From: Polyangiaceae bacterium
GTDB taxonomy: Bacteria; Myxococcota_A; Polyangia; Polyangiales; Polyangiaceae
Direction of reading: 5' to 3'
NCBI GenBank assembly: GCA_020849655.1
Contig: JADLFU010000131.1
Coordinates: 1-48,346, forward strand
Length of the DNA: 48,346 bases
The position numbers and the translations under genes were made by a program. Below, one piece after another: positions 18,814-25,419 of the stretch (position 1 is its first letter; every line of letters starts with the position of its first letter). Below the pieces are notes generated by a model. It was not told the origin of the DNA and did no database searches. It saw only the letters and a program-made list of their open reading frames with translations.

Positions 18814-19863
18814 ATGACCCCGCCCGACGATCTCTCCTACCTCCACAAGAAGACCGTGCTCGTCACGGGCGCGGCCGGCACCATCGGCTCCGCGCTCGTC
18901 GAGGCGCTCGCGCCGCACGTCAAGGCCGTCCGCTGCTTCGACCACGGCGAGAACGATCTGTTCTTCATGCACCAGGGGCTCGCGGGCGCCGGGCGCGTGG
19001 CGCCCCTGCTCGGCGACGTCCGCGACCTCGACCGCCTGCGCTTCGCGATGAACGGCGTCGACGTCGTGTTCCACACCGCGGCGCTGAAGCACGTCGGCCT
19101 CGGCGAGTACAACCCGTTCGAGGTCGTGCAGACGAACCTCCTCGGCCTCAACAACGTCATCCGCGCGGCCGTCGACGCGGACGTCGAGCGCGTCGTGTTC
19201 ACGTCGAGCGACAAGGCCGTCAACCCGACGAACGTGATGGGCGCCTCGAAGATGATGGGCGAGCGGCTCGTCGCGGCGGCGAACGAGATCCGCGGCGAGC
19301 GGCGCACGCGCTTCGCGTCGGTGCGGTTCGGCAACGTCATCGGCTCGCGCGGCTCGGTCGTGCCGATCTTCGCGCAGCAGCTGCTCCGGGGCGAGCCGAT
19401 CACGCTGACCGACGCCTCGATGACCCGCTACGTGATGACCATCCGCGAGGCGGCGTCGCTCGTGATCGAGGCCGGCGCGCGGATGCTCGGCGGCGAGGTC
19501 TTCGTCACGAAGATGCGCGCGCTCCGCGTCGAGGATCTCGCCCACGCGATGGCCGAGCTGCTCACCGGGCGGCCGCCCGACGTGCGCGTGATCGGCGCGC
19601 GCCCGGGCGAGAAGCTCTACGAGGAGCTGCTCAGCGTCGACGAGATGACCCGCGCCGTCGAGCTCGCGCGGCTGCTCGTCATCCTCTCGCCCGGGGCCGA
19701 CGTGTACGGCGGCGCGACGCGCGAGAGCCACGCGGGCGCGCTGCCCGTCACGCGCGAGTGGCACTCGGGCAACGACACATTCCTCACGCGAGACTCCATC
19801 AAGGAGTACCTGACGACGCACGGCGTGCTCGCGCCGTACCTGCCGCAGGGAGGCGCGCGATGA
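18814..19863 (+). CDS. pseB: UDP-GlcNAc 4,6-dehydratase-like SDR (PseB/CapD type)
   Basis: 349 aa soluble short-chain dehydrogenase; first step of the nonulosonic acid operon, predicted to act on UDP-GlcNAc. NAD(P) loop TGAAGTIG, then GDVRDLDRL, AALKHVGLGEYNPFE, SSDKAVNPTNVMGASK, FGNVIGSRGSVVP and GARPGEKLYEE, all characteristic of PseB/CapD. At the catalytic YxxxK position it has Met (MGASK) where small soluble PseB/FlaA1 enzymes have Tyr; Met is typical of the large membrane CapD/WbpM enzymes. Unlike those it lacks the N-terminal membrane domain. Its stop overlaps the next start (ATGA). Whether it also 5-epimerises (true PseB) is open. Confidence 0.85.
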   Translation: MTPPDDLSYLHKKTVLVTGAAGTIGSALVEALAPHVKAVRCFDHGENDLFFMHQGLAGAGRVAPLLGDVRDLDRLRFAMNGVDVVFHTAALKHVGLGEYNPFEVVQTNLLGLNNVIRAAVDADVERVVFTSSDKAVNPTNVMGASKMMGERLVAAANEIRGERRTRFASVRFGNVIGSRGSVVPIFAQQLLRGEPITLTDASMTRYVMTIREAASLVIEAGARMLGGEVFVTKMRALRVEDLAHAMAELLTGRPPDVRVIGARPGEKLYEELLSVDEMTRAVELARLLVILSPGADVYGGATRESHAGALPVTREWHSGNDTFLTRDSIKEYLTTHGVLAPYLPQGGAR

Positions 19864-20885
19864 GGTGCCTCGTCACGGGCGGCGCGGGGTTCATCGGGCG
19901 CTGGGTCGTCGACCGGCTGCTCGGTGACGGGCACGAGGTGCTCGCGCTCGACGATCTGTCGAACGGCCGCCGCGAGAACCTCGCCGCGATGAGCGGGCGG
20001 CCTGGCTGGCTCGGGCTCGTCGAGGGCGATCTGTGCGACGACGCCGTCCTCGCGCCGCTCTTCGAGCAGCACGCCTGGGATCTCGTGCTGCACCTCGGCG
20101 CGAGCATCCACGTGCAGCGCTCGATCGACGATCCGTGGCCGACGTTCCGCAACGACGGGCTCGGCACGTTCCGGGTGCTCGAGCGCTGCCGGCGGCAGCT
20201 CTTCGCGGCGAACGGCCTCGACGTCGACGCGCGGCACTTCGATTTCGCGCGCGACGTGCCGCGCCTGTCGCGCCGCGGGCCGCGCGTCGCGGTGATGTCC
20301 ACGTGCATGGTCTACGACATCGGCGGCGCCGAGCCGATCGGCGAGCGCCACCCGTACCGGCCCGCGTCGCCGTACGCCGCCGCGAAGATCGGCGCCGACA
20401 TGCTCGCCCTGTCCTACTTCCACAGCTACCGCATGCCGGTGACCGTGGTGCGCCCGTTCAACACCTACGGGCCCTTCCAGAAGAGCAACTCCGAGGGCGG
20501 CGTCGTGTCGATCTTCCTGAAGCGCGACCTCGAGGGGCAGCCCATCCTCGTGAAGGGCTCGGGCGAGCAGACGCGCGATCTGCTCTACGTCGCCGACTGC
20601 GCCGACTTCGTCGTGCGCTGCGCGATGGCCGAGGCCGCCGAGGGGCGCATCGTCAACGCGGGCACCGGCCACGACGTGTCGATCAACGAGCTCGCGGCGA
20701 TGTGCCGGAGCGGCGACAACGTCGTCGAGCACGTCGCCCACGACCACCCGCAGGCCGAGATCATGCGCCTGTGCGCGGACGCGTCGCTCGCGAAGGAGCT
20801 GCTCGGGTGGACGCCGTCGACGTCGCTCGCCGAGGGCCTCGCGCTCACCCGCCGCTGGCTGTCGGAGCACCGCGCCGCGTGGTGA
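19860..20885 (+). CDS. NAD-dependent nucleotide-sugar epimerase/dehydratase (SDR)
   Basis: 341 aa extended SDR. NAD loop TGGAGFIG at 7-14; catalytic Tyr/Lys in SPYAAAKIGAD; sugar-side motif RPFNTYGPFQ; C-terminal LGWTPSTSLAEGL. It resembles UDP-glucose 4-epimerase and dTDP-glucose 4,6-dehydratase-like proteins. It sits between pseB and pseC with 4-nt overlaps on both sides, so it is an integral part of this operon, yet the canonical pseudaminic pathway (B,C,H,G,I,F) has no such step. It could change the product's stereochemistry or feed another donor; sequence alone does not say. Confidence 0.85.
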   Translation: MRCLVTGGAGFIGRWVVDRLLGDGHEVLALDDLSNGRRENLAAMSGRPGWLGLVEGDLCDDAVLAPLFEQHAWDLVLHLGASIHVQRSIDDPWPTFRNDGLGTFRVLERCRRQLFAANGLDVDARHFDFARDVPRLSRRGPRVAVMSTCMVYDIGGAEPIGERHPYRPASPYAAAKIGADMLALSYFHSYRMPVTVVRPFNTYGPFQKSNSEGGVVSIFLKRDLEGQPILVKGSGEQTRDLLYVADCADFVVRCAMAEAAEGRIVNAGTGHDVSINELAAMCRSGDNVVEHVAHDHPQAEIMRLCADASLAKELLGWTPSTSLAEGLALTRRWLSEHRAAW

Positions 20886-22096
20886 CGCCGCTGCTCCCGT
20901 ACGGGCGCCAGGATATCGACGACGACGACGTCGCCGCGGTGGTCGCCCAGCTGCGGAGCGACTGGCTCACGCAGGGCCCGACGGTGCCGGCGTTCGAGGC
21001 GGCGCTGTGCGAGGCGACCGGCGCGAAGCACGCGATCGCCGTGTCGTCGGGCACCGCGGCGCTCCACCTCGCGTGCCTGGCCGCGGGCGTGCGCGCGGGC
21101 GACACGGGCGTCACCTCGACCATCACGTTCGTCGCGTCGGCGAACGCCATCCGCTACGCGGGCGGCGCGCCGTCGCTGTGCGACGTGGATCCAGAGACGG
21201 GCCTGGTCGATCTCGCGTCGCTCGACGCGGTGGTCTCGGGGCTCGCCGCGGCGGGGCGCGCGCCGAGGGTCGTCACGTCGGTCGATCTGTGCGGGAGCGT
21301 CGCGCCGCTCGCGCGCGTGCGCGAGATAGCGGCGCGCGTCGGCGCGAAGGTGATCGAGGACGCCGCGCACTCGCTCGGCGCCTCGTACGACGACGCGGGC
21401 GTCACGCGGCGCGCGGGCGACGGGGCGTACACCGACATGGCCATCCTCTCCTTTCACCCGGTCAAGCACGTGACGACCTGCGAGGGCGGCGCGATCCTGA
21501 CCAACGACGCCGGGGCCGCGGAGGAGCTGCGCGATCTGCGCTCGCACGGCATCACGAAGGATCCGGCGCGGCTCGGGCCCGTCGACGGCCCGTGGAGCTA
21601 CGAGCAGCAGCGGCTGGGGTTCCACTACCGCATCACCGACGTGCAGTGCGCGCTCGGCCTGTCGCAGCTGAAGAAGCTCCCGCGCTTCGTCGCGCGCCGC
21701 CGCGCGCTCGCCGCTCGCTACGACGCGGCGCTGTCGTCGGCGCCGCTCGCGGCCGCGTTCGCGCCGCTCCGCGTGCCCGCGGGCGTGACGTCGTCGTACC
21801 ACCTGTACGTCGTGCGCGTGCGACCCCGCGACGGCGAGGGGCTCGTCGAGGTCGCGGCGCGGAGGTTGGCCTTGTACGGCGCGCTGCGCGAGCGAGGCAT
21901 CCTGCCGCAGGTCCACTACATCCCCGTGCACAGGCAGCCCGACTTCGTCGCCTGCGGCCTCTCCCAGGGAGATTTCCGCGGCGCCGACGCCTACTACGCG
22001 GGGTGCCTGAGCCTGCCGATGTTCCCCGCGATGCAGGACGGCGACGTCGATCGCGTGGTCGACGCGCTCGCCGCGTTCGTCGCGTCGGGGCGATGA
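20882..22096 (+). CDS. pseC: PseC-type UDP-4-amino-sugar aminotransferase
   Basis: 404 aa PLP enzyme of the DegT/DnrJ/EryC1 fold. Predicted to transfer an amino group to C4 of the keto-sugar made by the dehydratase. Strong PseC-like features: LTQGPTVPAFEAALCEATGAKHA at the start, DAAHSLGASY, PLP Lys195 in SFHPVKHVTTCEGGA, RSHGITKDP, the ALGLSQLKKLPRFV stretch, and RGILPQVHYIPVHRQP. The start is GTG 20882 overlapping the upstream stop (GTGA); GTG 20879 is an alternative. Confidence 0.9.
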   Translation: MTPLLPYGRQDIDDDDVAAVVAQLRSDWLTQGPTVPAFEAALCEATGAKHAIAVSSGTAALHLACLAAGVRAGDTGVTSTITFVASANAIRYAGGAPSLCDVDPETGLVDLASLDAVVSGLAAAGRAPRVVTSVDLCGSVAPLARVREIAARVGAKVIEDAAHSLGASYDDAGVTRRAGDGAYTDMAILSFHPVKHVTTCEGGAILTNDAGAAEELRDLRSHGITKDPARLGPVDGPWSYEQQRLGFHYRITDVQCALGLSQLKKLPRFVARRRALAARYDAALSSAPLAAAFAPLRVPAGVTSSYHLYVVRVRPRDGEGLVEVAARRLALYGALRERGILPQVHYIPVHRQPDFVACGLSQGDFRGADAYYAGCLSLPMFPAMQDGDVDRVVDALAAFVASGR

Positions 22097-23133
22097 GCGC
22101 GCGGCCGAGCTCGCTGCTGCTGCGCGCCGACGCGAGCGCGGAGGCGGGCACCGGGCACGTGATGCGGATGCTGGCGCTCGGCCAGGCCTGGCAGGCGAGG
22201 GGCGGCGACGTGACGCTCGCGACGTGTGCGCCCGAGGCGCTCCGCGCGCGCGGGTCGCGGATGGGCGCGCGGATCGTCGAGGTGCCCGCCGCCACCGAGC
22301 CCGCCGCCGACCGCGCGACCCTCGAGGCCGCGCGGGGGGCGCGCGCGGTCGCGCTCGACGGCTACGCGTTCGGCCACGAGCTGCTGGCCGCGCTGCGCCA
22401 GGCGGGCGCCCGCGTGCTCGTCGTCGACGACAACGGCGAGAACGAGCGGTACGCGAGCGATCTCGTCCTCAACCAGAACCTCCACGCCAGGCTCGCGATG
22501 TACGCGCGCCGCGCGCCGTGGACGCAGGCGCTGCTCGGCCCGAGGTACACGCTCCTCCGATCCGAGTTCCGCGGCCACGTCGCGCCGCCGCGGCCCGCGC
22601 CAGGCGCCCGCTCCCGCGTGCTCGTGTCGATGGGCGGCGCCGATCCGGTCGACGCGACCGGCGCCACGCTCCGCGCGCTCGCCGAGCTCTCCGTCGACGA
22701 GCGCGCGTCCCTCGAGCTGCGAGCGCTGACGGGCGCCGCGAACCCCCGCGTCGAGGCGCTCCAGGCGCTCGCCGTCGGCGGCCTCGCCGAGGTGCTCGCG
22801 CCGACCGACGACATCGCCCCGCACCTCGCCTGGGCCGACGTCGCGCTCGCCGCCGCGGGCAGCACGCTGTGGGAATTGTGCGCGCTGGGGGTGCCCGCGC
22901 TGCTCGTGCCGATCGCCGACAACCAGGTCGAGCTGGCGAGGGAGGTGGCCCGGCGCGGCGCCGCGATCGCGCTGCCCGACGCGCGCACGTCGGCGGACGG
23001 CCGCGCCTGGCTCGCCGCGGCGGCGTCGCTCGCTCGCGACGACGCGCGTCGCCTCGCGATCTCGTCGGCCGCGCGCGCGCTGGTCGACGGGGAGGGCGCG
23101 GCCCGCGTCGCCGCCGCGCTCGACGCGGCCTGA
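22093..23133 (+). CDS. pseG: UDP-2,4-diacetamido-trideoxy-altropyranose hydrolase-like (PseG)
   Basis: 346 aa GT-B-fold enzyme predicted to remove UDP from the 2,4-diacetamido sugar before condensation with PEP. It opens with the PseG signature RADASAEAGTGHVMR, with catalytic-type His22. Later motifs: VLVVDDNGENER, DLVLNQN, LLGPRYTLLRSEFR, VLVSMGGADP and a UDP-binding AAGSTLWELCALGVPALL. All are as in PseG. ATGA overlap with pseC; 22 bp separate it from the synthase gene. Confidence 0.92.
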   Translation: MSARPSSLLLRADASAEAGTGHVMRMLALGQAWQARGGDVTLATCAPEALRARGSRMGARIVEVPAATEPAADRATLEAARGARAVALDGYAFGHELLAALRQAGARVLVVDDNGENERYASDLVLNQNLHARLAMYARRAPWTQALLGPRYTLLRSEFRGHVAPPRPAPGARSRVLVSMGGADPVDATGATLRALAELSVDERASLELRALTGAANPRVEALQALAVGGLAEVLAPTDDIAPHLAWADVALAAAGSTLWELCALGVPALLVPIADNQVELAREVARRGAAIALPDARTSADGRAWLAAAASLARDDARRLAISSAARALVDGEGAARVAAALDAA

Positions 23134-23155: not shown

Positions 23156-24688
23156 ATGCGCTCGTTTCGCATCGGGGATCGCGCGGTCGGCGGCGACGCG
23201 CCCACCTACTTCATCGCCGAGCTGTCGGCGAACCACGGCCACGATCTCGACAAGGCGCTGCAGACGATCGAGGCCGCCGCGAAGGCGGGCGCCGACGCCG
23301 TCAAGCTGCAGACCTACACGCCCGACACGCTCACGCTCCGCTCCGGGGCGCCGCCCTTCGTCGTCGCGACGAAGAACGAGTGGGCGGGCCGCACGCTGCA
23401 CGATCTCTACGCCGAGGCGATGACGCCGTGGGAGTGGCACCGGCAGCTGATCGACGCTGCGAGCGCGCTCGGGATGGCGTGCTTCTCGACGCCGTTCGAC
23501 GAGACGGCCGTCGCGTTCCTCGACGAGCTCGGCGTGCCCGCGTACAAGATCGCCTCGTTCGAGCTGGTCGATCTGCCGCTCGTCGAGCGCGTCGCGCGGC
23601 TGCACAGGCCGATGATCCTCTCGACCGGCATGGCGTCGCTCGGCGAGATCGTCGACGCGGTCGCGACCTGCCACCAGGCGGGCAACCGCGATCTCGCGGT
23701 GCTCCGGTGCGTGTCCGCGTACCCGGCGAGCCCCGCGTCGATGGCGCTGCGGAGCCTCGAGGTGCTGCGCGGGCTCGACGTCGTCATCGGCCTCTCCGAT
23801 CACACGACCGATCCGGTCGCCGCGATCACGGCCGTCGCGCTCGGCGCGCGCGTCGTCGAGAAGCACCTGATCGTCGACCGAGCCTGGGGCGGCCCCGACG
23901 CGTTCTTCTCGCTCGAGCCCGCCGAGTTCGCCGAGATGGTGCGCAGGGTGCGCGTCGCCGAGGCCGCGATGGGCGCGCCGCGGTTCGGTCCGTCGGCCGA
24001 GGAGCGGTCGAGCGTCGCGTTTCGTCGCTCGCTGTTCGTCGCCGCCGACGTCGCCGAGGGAGAGCTGTTGACGGCCGACAACGTGCGCAGCGTCCGCCCG
24101 TCGCACGGCCTGTCGCCGCGGCACCTCCCCGACGTGCTCGGTCGCCGCGCTGCCCGCGCGCTCTCGGCCGCCGAGCCGCTCGCGTGGGACATGGTCGGCG
24201 CGCGGCCCGCGCCTGCGGTGACGCTCCGGCCCGTCGTCGCCGACGACACCGACAGGCTGCTCGCGTGGCGCAACGACGAGGCGACGCGCGCGATGTCGCG
24301 CAGCCAGGCGCCCGTGTCCCGCGAGGAGCACGTCGCGTGGCTCGACGGGCTCCGCGACGACGCGCGGCGGAGGCTCTTCGTCGCGGTGCACGAGGGGGCC
24401 CCGGTGGGTCAGGTGCGCCTCGACGACGAGGGCGACGGCGCGTGGGAGCTGTCGTTCACCGTCGCGCCGGACGCGCGCGGGCAAGGCCTGGCGACCGAGC
24501 TCTTGCGGGCCGCAGAGGTCCGCGCGAAGGAGCTCGGCGCGACGACGCTGCTCGCCGAGATCCGCGCGGAGAACGCGCGCAGCCTCCGGGCCTTCCGCGC
24601 CGCCGGCTGGTACGGCTTCGCGACGCGCACGCGAGACGGCCAGGCGTTCGTGCGCGCCGAGCGGCGCGTCGCGGGGTTCGGCGGGTGA
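23156..24688 (+). CDS. pseI: pseudaminic acid synthase fused to a GNAT acetyltransferase (PseI-PseH fusion)
   Basis: 510 aa, about 160 longer than ordinary PseI/NeuB synthases. Residues 1-275 are a NeuB TIM barrel (FIAELSANHGHD, AVKLQTYTPDT, PAYKIASFELVDLPL, STGMASLGEI, GLSDHT, VEKHLIVDRAWGGPDAFFSL). Residues about 285-347 are a SAF (antifreeze-like) domain. Residues 354-504 are a GNAT domain (TLRPVVADDTDRLLAWRNDE; acetyl-CoA loop ARGQGLATELL at 440-450). No separate PseH gene occurs in the operon, so the GNAT part most likely performs the missing N-acetylation. Acetylation (PseH) precedes PseG hydrolysis and PseI condensation, so one chain would carry two non-consecutive steps. Start ATG 23156. 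Confidence 0.9.
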   Translation: MRSFRIGDRAVGGDAPTYFIAELSANHGHDLDKALQTIEAAAKAGADAVKLQTYTPDTLTLRSGAPPFVVATKNEWAGRTLHDLYAEAMTPWEWHRQLIDAASALGMACFSTPFDETAVAFLDELGVPAYKIASFELVDLPLVERVARLHRPMILSTGMASLGEIVDAVATCHQAGNRDLAVLRCVSAYPASPASMALRSLEVLRGLDVVIGLSDHTTDPVAAITAVALGARVVEKHLIVDRAWGGPDAFFSLEPAEFAEMVRRVRVAEAAMGAPRFGPSAEERSSVAFRRSLFVAADVAEGELLTADNVRSVRPSHGLSPRHLPDVLGRRAARALSAAEPLAWDMVGARPAPAVTLRPVVADDTDRLLAWRNDEATRAMSRSQAPVSREEHVAWLDGLRDDARRRLFVAVHEGAPVGQVRLDDEGDGAWELSFTVAPDARGQGLATELLRAAEVRAKELGATTLLAEIRAENARSLRAFRAAGWYGFATRTRDGQAFVRAERRVAGFGG

Positions 24689-25419
24689 AGGTCGTCGCGA
24701 TCGTCCAGGCGCGCCTGGCGTCGTCGCGCCTCCCCGCGAAGCCGCTGCTCGATCTCGGCGGCGCCACCGCGCTCGAGCGCTGTCTGCGGCGCGTGCGGCG
24801 CTTCACCGGGGTCGACGAGGTGGTCGTCGCGGCGTCGGATCGACCGGGCGCCGAGATCCTCGCCCGCGTCGCCGCGCGCGCCGGCGTCGAGACGGTGCTC
24901 GGCGACGAGGACGATGTGCTCTCGCGCTACGCCCACGCCGCCCGTTACACGCACGCCGACGTGGTCGTCCGGTGCACCTCCGACTGCCCGCTGCTCGATC
25001 CCGGCGTCTCGAGCGCGGTCGTCGCGGCCTTCGTCGCCGACGGCGCCGCCGCCTACGCGTCGAACACGCTCGATCGCGCGCTGCCCCGCGGGCTCGACAC
25101 CGAGGTGATGTCTGCAGACGCGCTGTTCGCCGCGGAGCGCGACGCGACCGAGCGCCCCGCGCGCGAGCACGTCACCTGGTACTTGTACCAACACCCCGTG
25201 CGGTTCCGCTGCCTGTCGGTGCCGACGGGGCGCCCCGACGATCTCTCGCGACACCGCTGGACGCTCGACACGCTCGACGACTACCGCCTCCTGCACGCGA
25301 TCTTCGACCGCCTGGGGCCGCGCGCCGACGACGCCGGGCTCGACGACGTGCTCGACGCGGTGCGCCGCGCCCCCGCGCTCGTCGGCTACAACGACGACGT
25401 CGCGCAGAAGCCGAGCTGA
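24685..25419 (+). CDS. SpsF-type cytidylyltransferase
   Basis: 244 aa starting at GTG 24685 overlapping the synthase stop (GTGA). Nucleotidyltransferase fold of the SpsF/CMP-sugar synthetase group: VAIVQARLASSRLPAKPL loop, GDEDDVLSRY, RCTSDCPLLDP, and RHRWTLDTLDDYRLL. Predicted to activate the nonulosonic acid with CMP. Classic PseF/NeuA proteins carry a slightly different N-terminal loop; the SpsF type usually lies with SpsE-like synthases. It is the last gene of the operon. No glycosyltransferase follows, so transfer to a surface target is encoded elsewhere. Confidence 0.88.
   Translation: MKVVAIVQARLASSRLPAKPLLDLGGATALERCLRRVRRFTGVDEVVVAASDRPGAEILARVAARAGVETVLGDEDDVLSRYAHAARYTHADVVVRCTSDCPLLDPGVSSAVVAAFVADGAAAYASNTLDRALPRGLDTEVMSADALFAAERDATERPAREHVTWYLYQHPVRFRCLSVPTGRPDDLSRHRWTLDTLDDYRLLHAIFDRLGPRADDAGLDDVLDAVRRAPALVGYNDDVAQKPS

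Follow-up and report, generated by a model that had tools for sequence, protein, structure and literature searches.

The window studied here, a 48,346-nucleotide stretch of contig JADLFU010000131.1 from a Polyangiaceae bacterium (assembly GCA_020849655.1), encodes a 510-residue protein in which a synthase of the PseI type is joined in one chain to a GNAT acetyltransferase domain, and we consider it probable, on sequence grounds, that this protein takes part in CMP-pseudaminic acid synthesis as a bifunctional enzyme that combines the PseI reaction with the role of PseH. At step 3 of the pathway the GNAT half would acetylate the sugar, with both acceptor and acyl group presumptive; at step 4 the UDP would be removed by a separate PseG encoded just upstream; and at step 5 the barrel and SAF domain would condense the freed sugar with phosphoenolpyruvate. 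A sequence-only reading of the same DNA had proposed that the fusion joins the two steps flanking that of PseG, and this is upheld, as the GNAT and PseI reactions bracket PseG.

Architecture of the fused protein and its operon

The fusion gene (Table 1) is a single reading frame that runs from the ATG at 23156 to the TGA at 24688 with zero internal stops in translation, and its product exceeds the Pfam cut-offs for all three constituent domains: NeuB at residues 38-274 (271.3 bits against a cut-off of 22.1), SAF at residues 290-347 (47.4 against 21) and Acetyltransf_3, a GNAT family, at residues 355-484 (69.8 against 25.4). The continuous NeuB-SAF-GNAT chain described in the sequence-only reading is thus real, with domain limits that were essentially correct. 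Whole-chain structure prediction, which that reading had suggested as a check, yielded an AlphaFold model of the 510 residues with a mean pLDDT of 86.9 and a pTM of 0.57, in which pLDDT stays at about 93-94 across residues 331-360, spanning the linker; the GNAT domain modelled alone reaches a pLDDT of 95.8 and a pTM of 0.89. The fusion frame is not an assembly artefact, since the same fused frame recurs in other Myxococcota contigs and genomes and in one Lachnospiraceae contig.

Table 1. Genes of the operon and domains of the fused protein, in window coordinates
Feature	Position	Strand	Basis
Pen/PseB-type UDP-GlcNAc dehydratase, Met for catalytic Tyr (SSDKAVNPTNVMGASK)	18814..19863	+	PDB 6bwc
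Pal-like SDR	19860..20885	+	best PDB match 6bwl (Pal), E 4e-95
PseC aminotransferase	20882..22096	+	NCBIfam PseC, 447.1 bits, above the cut-off of 423.5
PseG UDP-sugar hydrolase	22093..23133	+	NCBIfam PseG, 171.8 bits, above the cut-off of 153.55
PseI~GNAT fusion gene	23156..24688	+	510 aa
NeuB/PseI barrel, residues 1-274	23156..23977	+	Pfam NeuB
SAF domain, residues 290-347	24023..24196	+	Pfam SAF
Linker, residues 348-354	24197..24217	+	fused alignment
GNAT domain, residues 355-504, PseH-role subfamily	24218..24667	+	Pfam, subfamily profile, trees
Cytidylyltransferase	24685..25419	+	Pfam CTP_transf_3, 81.2 bits; 4-base overlap with the fusion gene

Against NCBIfam TIGR03586 PseI, the synthase half scores above the equivalog cut-off (432.9 bits against 340.25), and it falls short of that of the NnaB model (270.5 against 399.65). 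Its best sequence match is Campylobacter jejuni PseI 8h2c (E 1.5e-78), which also ranks first by structure (Z 35.6, rmsd 7.0, 340 aligned residues). In the alignment of fused proteins, E22, H216 and H237 of the barrel and R311 and R314 of the SAF domain are invariant in all 15 rows; we matched the window residues by motif to Caulobacter crescentus NeuB, where, according to PMC7591256, the catalytic Glu, the metal His and the substrate-binding SAF Arg are E30, H245 and R322. The protein therefore shares with PseI the barrel and SAF layout, the model score and the invariant Glu, His and SAF Arg, and differs from it by an additional C-terminal GNAT domain of about 150 residues behind a 7-8-residue linker. 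Comparison of the whole-chain fold was uninformative as to the role of that domain, as NeuB and other barrels that use PEP took up its list of matches.

The six genes of the operon follow one another in the same direction; four of their junctions are 4-base overlaps, and the remaining one, just before the fusion gene, is a gap of 22 bases. Beyond what the sequence-only reading had described, the operon opens with Pen/Pal-like enzymes: the best PDB matches of its first two products are 6bwc (E 6e-73), which is Pen by name in PMC8987622, and 6bwl, the second-best match of the SDR being far weaker (E 6e-49). A Pen-like dehydratase and a Pal-like SDR thus stand side by side, the pairing by which a Pen/Pal entry into the pathway is recognized, and the SDR is probably the 5,6-reductase/5-epimerase partner of the dehydratase. 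The likeness to Pen and Pal of Bacillus thuringiensis does not extend to one catalytic position, in that the dehydratase of the window carries Met at the Tyr of YxxxK, whereas Pen has Tyr there and is assigned the catalytic motif TDKxnYx3K in the motif table of PMC8987622, which the window enzyme consequently departs from. Against NCBIfam PseB the dehydratase scores 279.8 bits, under the cut-off of 407.75. The cytidylyltransferase is probably a CMP-sugar synthetase, and its assignment to TIGR03584 PseF is ruled out (12.3 bits against a cut-off of 205.7).

As the PseC, PseG and PseI cut-offs are all passed and the first two products best match Pen and Pal, we interpret the operon as a CMP-pseudaminic acid pathway of the Pen/Pal type, with the fused GNAT as its sole candidate for step 3. 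A sialic or legionaminic acid pathway is rejected on the failed NnaB cut-off, the passed PseC, PseG and PseI cut-offs and the presence of the Pal-like SDR. In agreement with the earlier remark that the operon otherwise lacks a PseH, the fused domain is the only TIGR03585 match on the contig, and the profile of its own subfamily matches one place in the window's genome, which is 96.94% complete. A flagellar use of the sugar is not borne out either, as the same genome gave zero Flagellin_N and zero PF01973 matches.

The Met-type dehydratase (NVMGASK) is not peculiar to the window. It co-occurs with a Pal-like SDR in 7/7 readable fetched loci (L007, L011, L012, L014, L016, L017 and L020) as well as in the window itself (18814-20885), and where the Pal-like SDR is missing the dehydratase has Tyr (45/45 readable loci). 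The Met-type dehydratase and SDR together look like a splitting of PseB's dehydration and 5-epimerisation between two proteins, with an altered catalytic residue.

Recurrence and evolution of the join

A survey of domain architectures, proposed in the sequence-only reading and carried out here, reveals that the NeuB-SAF-GNAT fusion is a repeated architecture, a point which that reading had missed. The fusion occupies one frame in at least 25 distinct loci, 24 from Myxococcota and one from Lachnospiraceae. In the scan of genome contigs, at least 14 loci among the best 80 of 130 carry NeuB and GNAT in one frame, namely the Myxococcota loci L007-L019 (the title of L015 reads Deltaproteobacteria, and the tree tool assigns it to Myxococcota) and L022, which belongs to a Lachnospiraceae bacterium. 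A NeuB-like match is present in 137 of 377 Myxococcota genomes and, in 14 of them, the window's own included, runs through a GNAT in one frame; the fused sets from the contig scan and from the 377 genomes overlap by three genomes. Searches of plasmid and phage collections returned zero records in which 80% of the fusion was covered at one place, and the viral collection contained one relative, which is unfused.

Elsewhere the GNAT occurs as a free gene directly upstream or downstream of PseI or as an extension of the PseG C-terminus, and no locus among those examined has two GNATs above 95 bits. That the GNAT can stand alone beside PseI or be joined to either PseI or PseG, and is thus interchangeable in its placement, supports the bifunctional reading. 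On a Klebsiella pneumoniae plasmid, for example, the annotated pseG (L177:3897-5429, 510 aa) encodes a PseG~GNAT protein within a pseB-pseC-pseF-pseG-pseI cluster that has no annotated pseH; the GNAT is there attached to the next enzyme of the pathway, PseG, whereas its partner in the window acts one step later. A similar chimera has been described in Aeromonas caviae, in which PseG and a RimL-like PseH domain form one protein (PMC7874193, citing Tabei 2009), so that the A. caviae Sch3N protein resembles ours in fusing the step-3 acetyltransferase to a later pathway enzyme and differs from it in the partner, PseG rather than PseI. PseG-PseH chimeras are already in print; for a PseI-PseH join we found no published report in the literature searched.

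In the GNAT tree, the window domain belongs to a 17-row clade (starred, 98) made up of fused proteins throughout, which is nested in a 60-row group of Pse-cluster GNATs together with one stray long-branch GNAT; the branch uniting the Pse-cluster GNATs has an SH-aLRT value of 91 and is unstarred. Canonical PseH falls outside this group, among other GNATs. The NeuB tree comprises 84 rows, after removal of duplicates and weak rows, of the majority of Campylobacterota rows in which a free GNAT lies upstream and of the L047-L086 rows with no GNAT nearby. On it, the fused state requires eight changes, at least seven of them forced by starred branches, or seven changes in a recount that omits L020, which ends at a contig edge. 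Placement of all 25 fused rows in one clade is rejected (p 6.7e-67), a result that is in part expected because these rows include a second NeuB lineage. The join has probably arisen more than once, the changes on the tree being either gains or losses.

The second lineage is represented by one fused group whose NeuB domains fail both the PseI and the NnaB cut-offs in 4/4 tested members (L117, L119, L123 and L125). In two of these loci (L119:5166-8776 and L123:5741-9110; G292 and G025) a cytidylyltransferase and PseG also share one open frame, so that, with NeuB~GNAT alongside cytidylyltransferase~PseG, four enzymes may sit in two polypeptides.

Physically, the join would keep the GNAT near the synthase, perhaps with a docked PseG, and could in this way tie together the flux of both dedicated steps; it may hold PseG between the two halves, set the proportion of the two enzymes or have no functional consequence. 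This last, neutral case, in which the step-3 role is correct and adjacent PseI and GNAT genes were merely fused by loss of a stop codon, with neither harm nor benefit, comes close to an even chance but falls a little short of it. It accords with the common occurrence in Myxococcota of a free GNAT directly downstream of PseI and with sister pairs that differ only by fusion (L117 fused and L129 free, on a starred branch, 98), but it sits less well with the retention of the fused state in 14/16 rows of the window's starred branch (99), where one other row is a contig ending at that point, with a near-constant linker (7-8 residues in 14/15 fused rows, 3 in L022) and with the joining of the GNAT to PseG in other lineages.

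Substrate channelling by the fusion, as raised in the sequence-only reading, is plausible, but the join alone cannot channel from the GNAT to the barrel, because the intermediate must visit PseG. The GNAT-PseG fusions of other lineages favour, at the level of gene architecture, a physical association of all three enzymes. We tentatively suggest, at less than even odds, that GNAT, PseG and PseI could form a metabolon in which separate lineages would have made the contact permanent time and again by joining the GNAT to the later enzyme that it meets, be it PseG or PseI. In the window protein, PseG would then lie between GNAT half and synthase half, where it would receive its substrate from the GNAT and hand its product to the barrel.

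The GNAT half and its subfamily

The best NCBIfam match of the GNAT half is PseH (TIGR03585) at 49.9 bits, and since this misses the equivalog cut-off of 93.1 we do not file the domain as TIGR03585 PseH. It is a member of a distinct GNAT subfamily and not a canonical PseH, a distinction that had escaped the sequence-only reading. A 56-row alignment of this subfamily (A2) was mapped through alignments onto Helicobacter pylori PseH, with residue roles taken from PMC4363471. The GNAT half displays the motifs WRND..TR..S, H392, W395, VRxD at 420-423, NxxS at 473-476 and F480. All three UDP-pocket residues of PseH that we considered have counterparts in the window: His49 corresponds to H392 (His in 56/56 subfamily rows), Phe52 to W395 (Trp in 55, Phe in one) and Arg30 to R372, a position at which just 24/56 rows have Arg. 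On the cofactor side, the CoA-contacting Asn131 corresponds to N473 (56/56), and the acyl-CoA motif R/QxxGxG/A is present as R441-G442-Q443-G444, with R441 kept in 52/56 rows and G442 in 54/56. Loss of the acetyl-CoA-binding residues, which the sequence-only reading had named as evidence against its proposal, is accordingly not what we find.

The domain thus shares with PseH (H. pylori 4ri1, C. jejuni 4xpk) the GNAT fold, the WRN motif, the UDP-pocket His and aromatic residue, the CoA-contacting Asn and the cluster context, and differs from it in its score below the cut-off, in its fusion to PseI and in two features of the active site. The first is the general acid of PseH, Tyr138, which is Tyr in 20/20 canonical rows and is replaced by F480 in the window and, across the subfamily, by Phe in 51 rows, Ala in three and Leu in one, a single row of the 56 retaining Tyr. 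Given that S476 is Ser in 55/56 rows and that the general acids Ser553 of MccE and Ser141 of RimL are placed near the Tyr138 position in PMC4363471, we propose S476 as the candidate general acid of the GNAT half. The second is the acceptor side, where Met39 of PseH is replaced by S381, Ser78 by R421 and Thr80 by D423. The failed PseH cut-off, the missing Tyr and the altered acceptor side all count against the bifunctional reading.

Conserved changes in the acceptor and acyl pocket (Met39 to Ser, Ser78 to Arg) could also mean that the subfamily carries out step 3 with another acyl donor, such as a 3-hydroxybutyryl group, to give a non-acetyl N-acyl pseudaminic acid; rhizobial pseudaminic acids do carry N-acyl groups other than acetyl, but the ordinary acyl-CoA motif speaks against such a donor and we regard it as unlikely. 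Fold comparison of the GNAT domain alone recovers SpeG, AAC(6')-Ib, RimL and PseH all at Z 18-21, with PseH 4ri1 (Z 19.9) ranked under SpeG and AAC(6')-Ib (Z 20-21), and as the fold does not discriminate, we did not base the choice of a substrate on structure.

At 125 bits or more, the A2 profile matches 45/377 Myxococcota genomes, once in each, the next match lying at 105 bits; the canonical PseH cut-off is passed in 2/377, neither of which has the fusion. By-eye comparison of match coordinates shows that 40 of the 45 strong matches are fused to a NeuB match or lie no more than about 2.5 kb from one. The other five (G316, G359, G187, G276 and G283), together with one phage member, weigh against the bifunctional reading, and in G316, G359 and G187 the family-matched neighbours are unrelated to nonulosonic acids. 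The strong subfamily members at two of these loci, L134 (G359) and L162 (G187), have a GH65 hydrolase and a CNNM/CorC transporter gene as neighbours. The subfamily is, on the evidence of these off-cluster members and of the phage member, not confined to nonulosonic acid clusters.

A probable functional anchor for the subfamily comes from Sinorhizobium fredii NGR234: among plasmids, the GNAT half is matched best by a gene on its pNGR234b (34.6% identity over 130 columns). The same 20-kb stretch encodes relatives of PseB, PseC, PseG and PseI, and among its 25 ORFs of at least 140 aa, some of them overlapping, the 13 scanned at rkp-3 include no other acetyltransferase domain. The record is unannotated, and this GNAT (L176; pNGR234b 934153-934512) is very likely rkp3_013. 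According to PMC7591256, deletion of rkp3_013 abolishes the K antigen and pseudaminic-acid-dependent flagellin modification, and the K antigen is restored by C. crescentus FlmH, itself just 26% identical to C. jejuni PseH. The S. fredii acetyltransferase shares with the window domain its subfamily, its motifs and its setting in a pseudaminic acid locus, and differs in being a short, free protein.

A close relative is found in Rhizobium phage 16-3, where the GNAT encoded by immXl (L136:2001-2384), an immX immunity gene that adjoins a tail fibre gene, shares 74% identity with the rkp-3 acetyltransferase of S. fredii. Its product may acylate host pseudaminic acid and thereby alter the K antigen, which we take to be the receptor in the case of phage 16-3. 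PMC10460002 cites work on immX whose title names a repressor function.

Other GNATs are present in the window's genome. One on C37 scores higher against PseH (58 bits) than the fused domain, and we rejected it as the step-3 enzyme on neighbourhood and tree: its neighbours, a WecE-type transaminase that passes its cut-off, a WbqC-like gene identified by eye and Wzy_C genes, indicate that it probably serves another sugar, and it groups outside the Pse-cluster clade. A second aminosugar cluster in the same genome (G000:C44:67176-70788; L139) contains, as judged by eye, ORFs for an SpsF-like cytidylyltransferase, a RimJ-like GNAT, a Gfo/Idh-like oxidoreductase and a DegT-like aminotransferase. The fusion is the only NeuB match in the genome. 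A separate PseH elsewhere, which would have weakened the original proposal, did not emerge, as neither the operon nor the genome holds another PseH candidate in a fitting context.

These GNATs bear on the alternative raised in the sequence-only reading, in which the fused domain acylates the finished sugar, that is, N- or O-acylates pseudaminic acid or its CMP form after PseI, with step 3 performed by another GNAT in trans. A product-modifying domain would suit fusion to the last enzyme that builds the carbon skeleton, the acceptor-side residues are unlike those of canonical PseH, and the C37 and C44 enzymes show that the genome has other sugar GNATs. However, the UDP-pocket His and aromatic residue are kept in 56/56 rows each, members of the same subfamily are fused elsewhere to PseG, an enzyme that acts before PseI, the operon has no second GNAT, and the C37 and C44 GNATs group apart and sit in other clusters. 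The NGR234 member, moreover, is probably needed for pseudaminic acid itself, to judge from the phenotypes given in PMC7591256, and very probably represents an enzyme already tested for step 3. On the kept UDP-pocket residues and on this member, we disfavour acylation of the finished sugar and hold it to be improbable. Least probable of all is a weak or dead GNAT half with a structural or regulatory function, for instance as an acetyl-CoA sensor for the synthase, which would accord with Phe at the general-acid position but is highly improbable given the conservation of R441-G442, N473 and S476, the use of Ser near Tyr138 as the general acid of RimL and MccE (PMC4363471) and the existence of free members with the same residues whose loci contain no other strong GNAT.

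Implications for pseudaminic acid synthesis

For Myxococcota, in which the canonical PseH model accounts for so few genomes, a bifunctional PseI and PseH-role enzyme would fill the missing step 3 of pseudaminic acid synthesis and would add a second GNAT subfamily for this step, with a general acid that is probably different. One enzyme for two steps would also be of use in the enzymatic synthesis of CMP-pseudaminic acid. To judge from the relative that phage 16-3 carries in its immunity region, this reaction may also serve to alter a phage receptor. Finally, with steps 3 and 5 on a single polypeptide, a putative PseH-PseG-PseI complex becomes directly testable, and the recurrence of the join suggests that the enzymes of the pathway work as a physical team.
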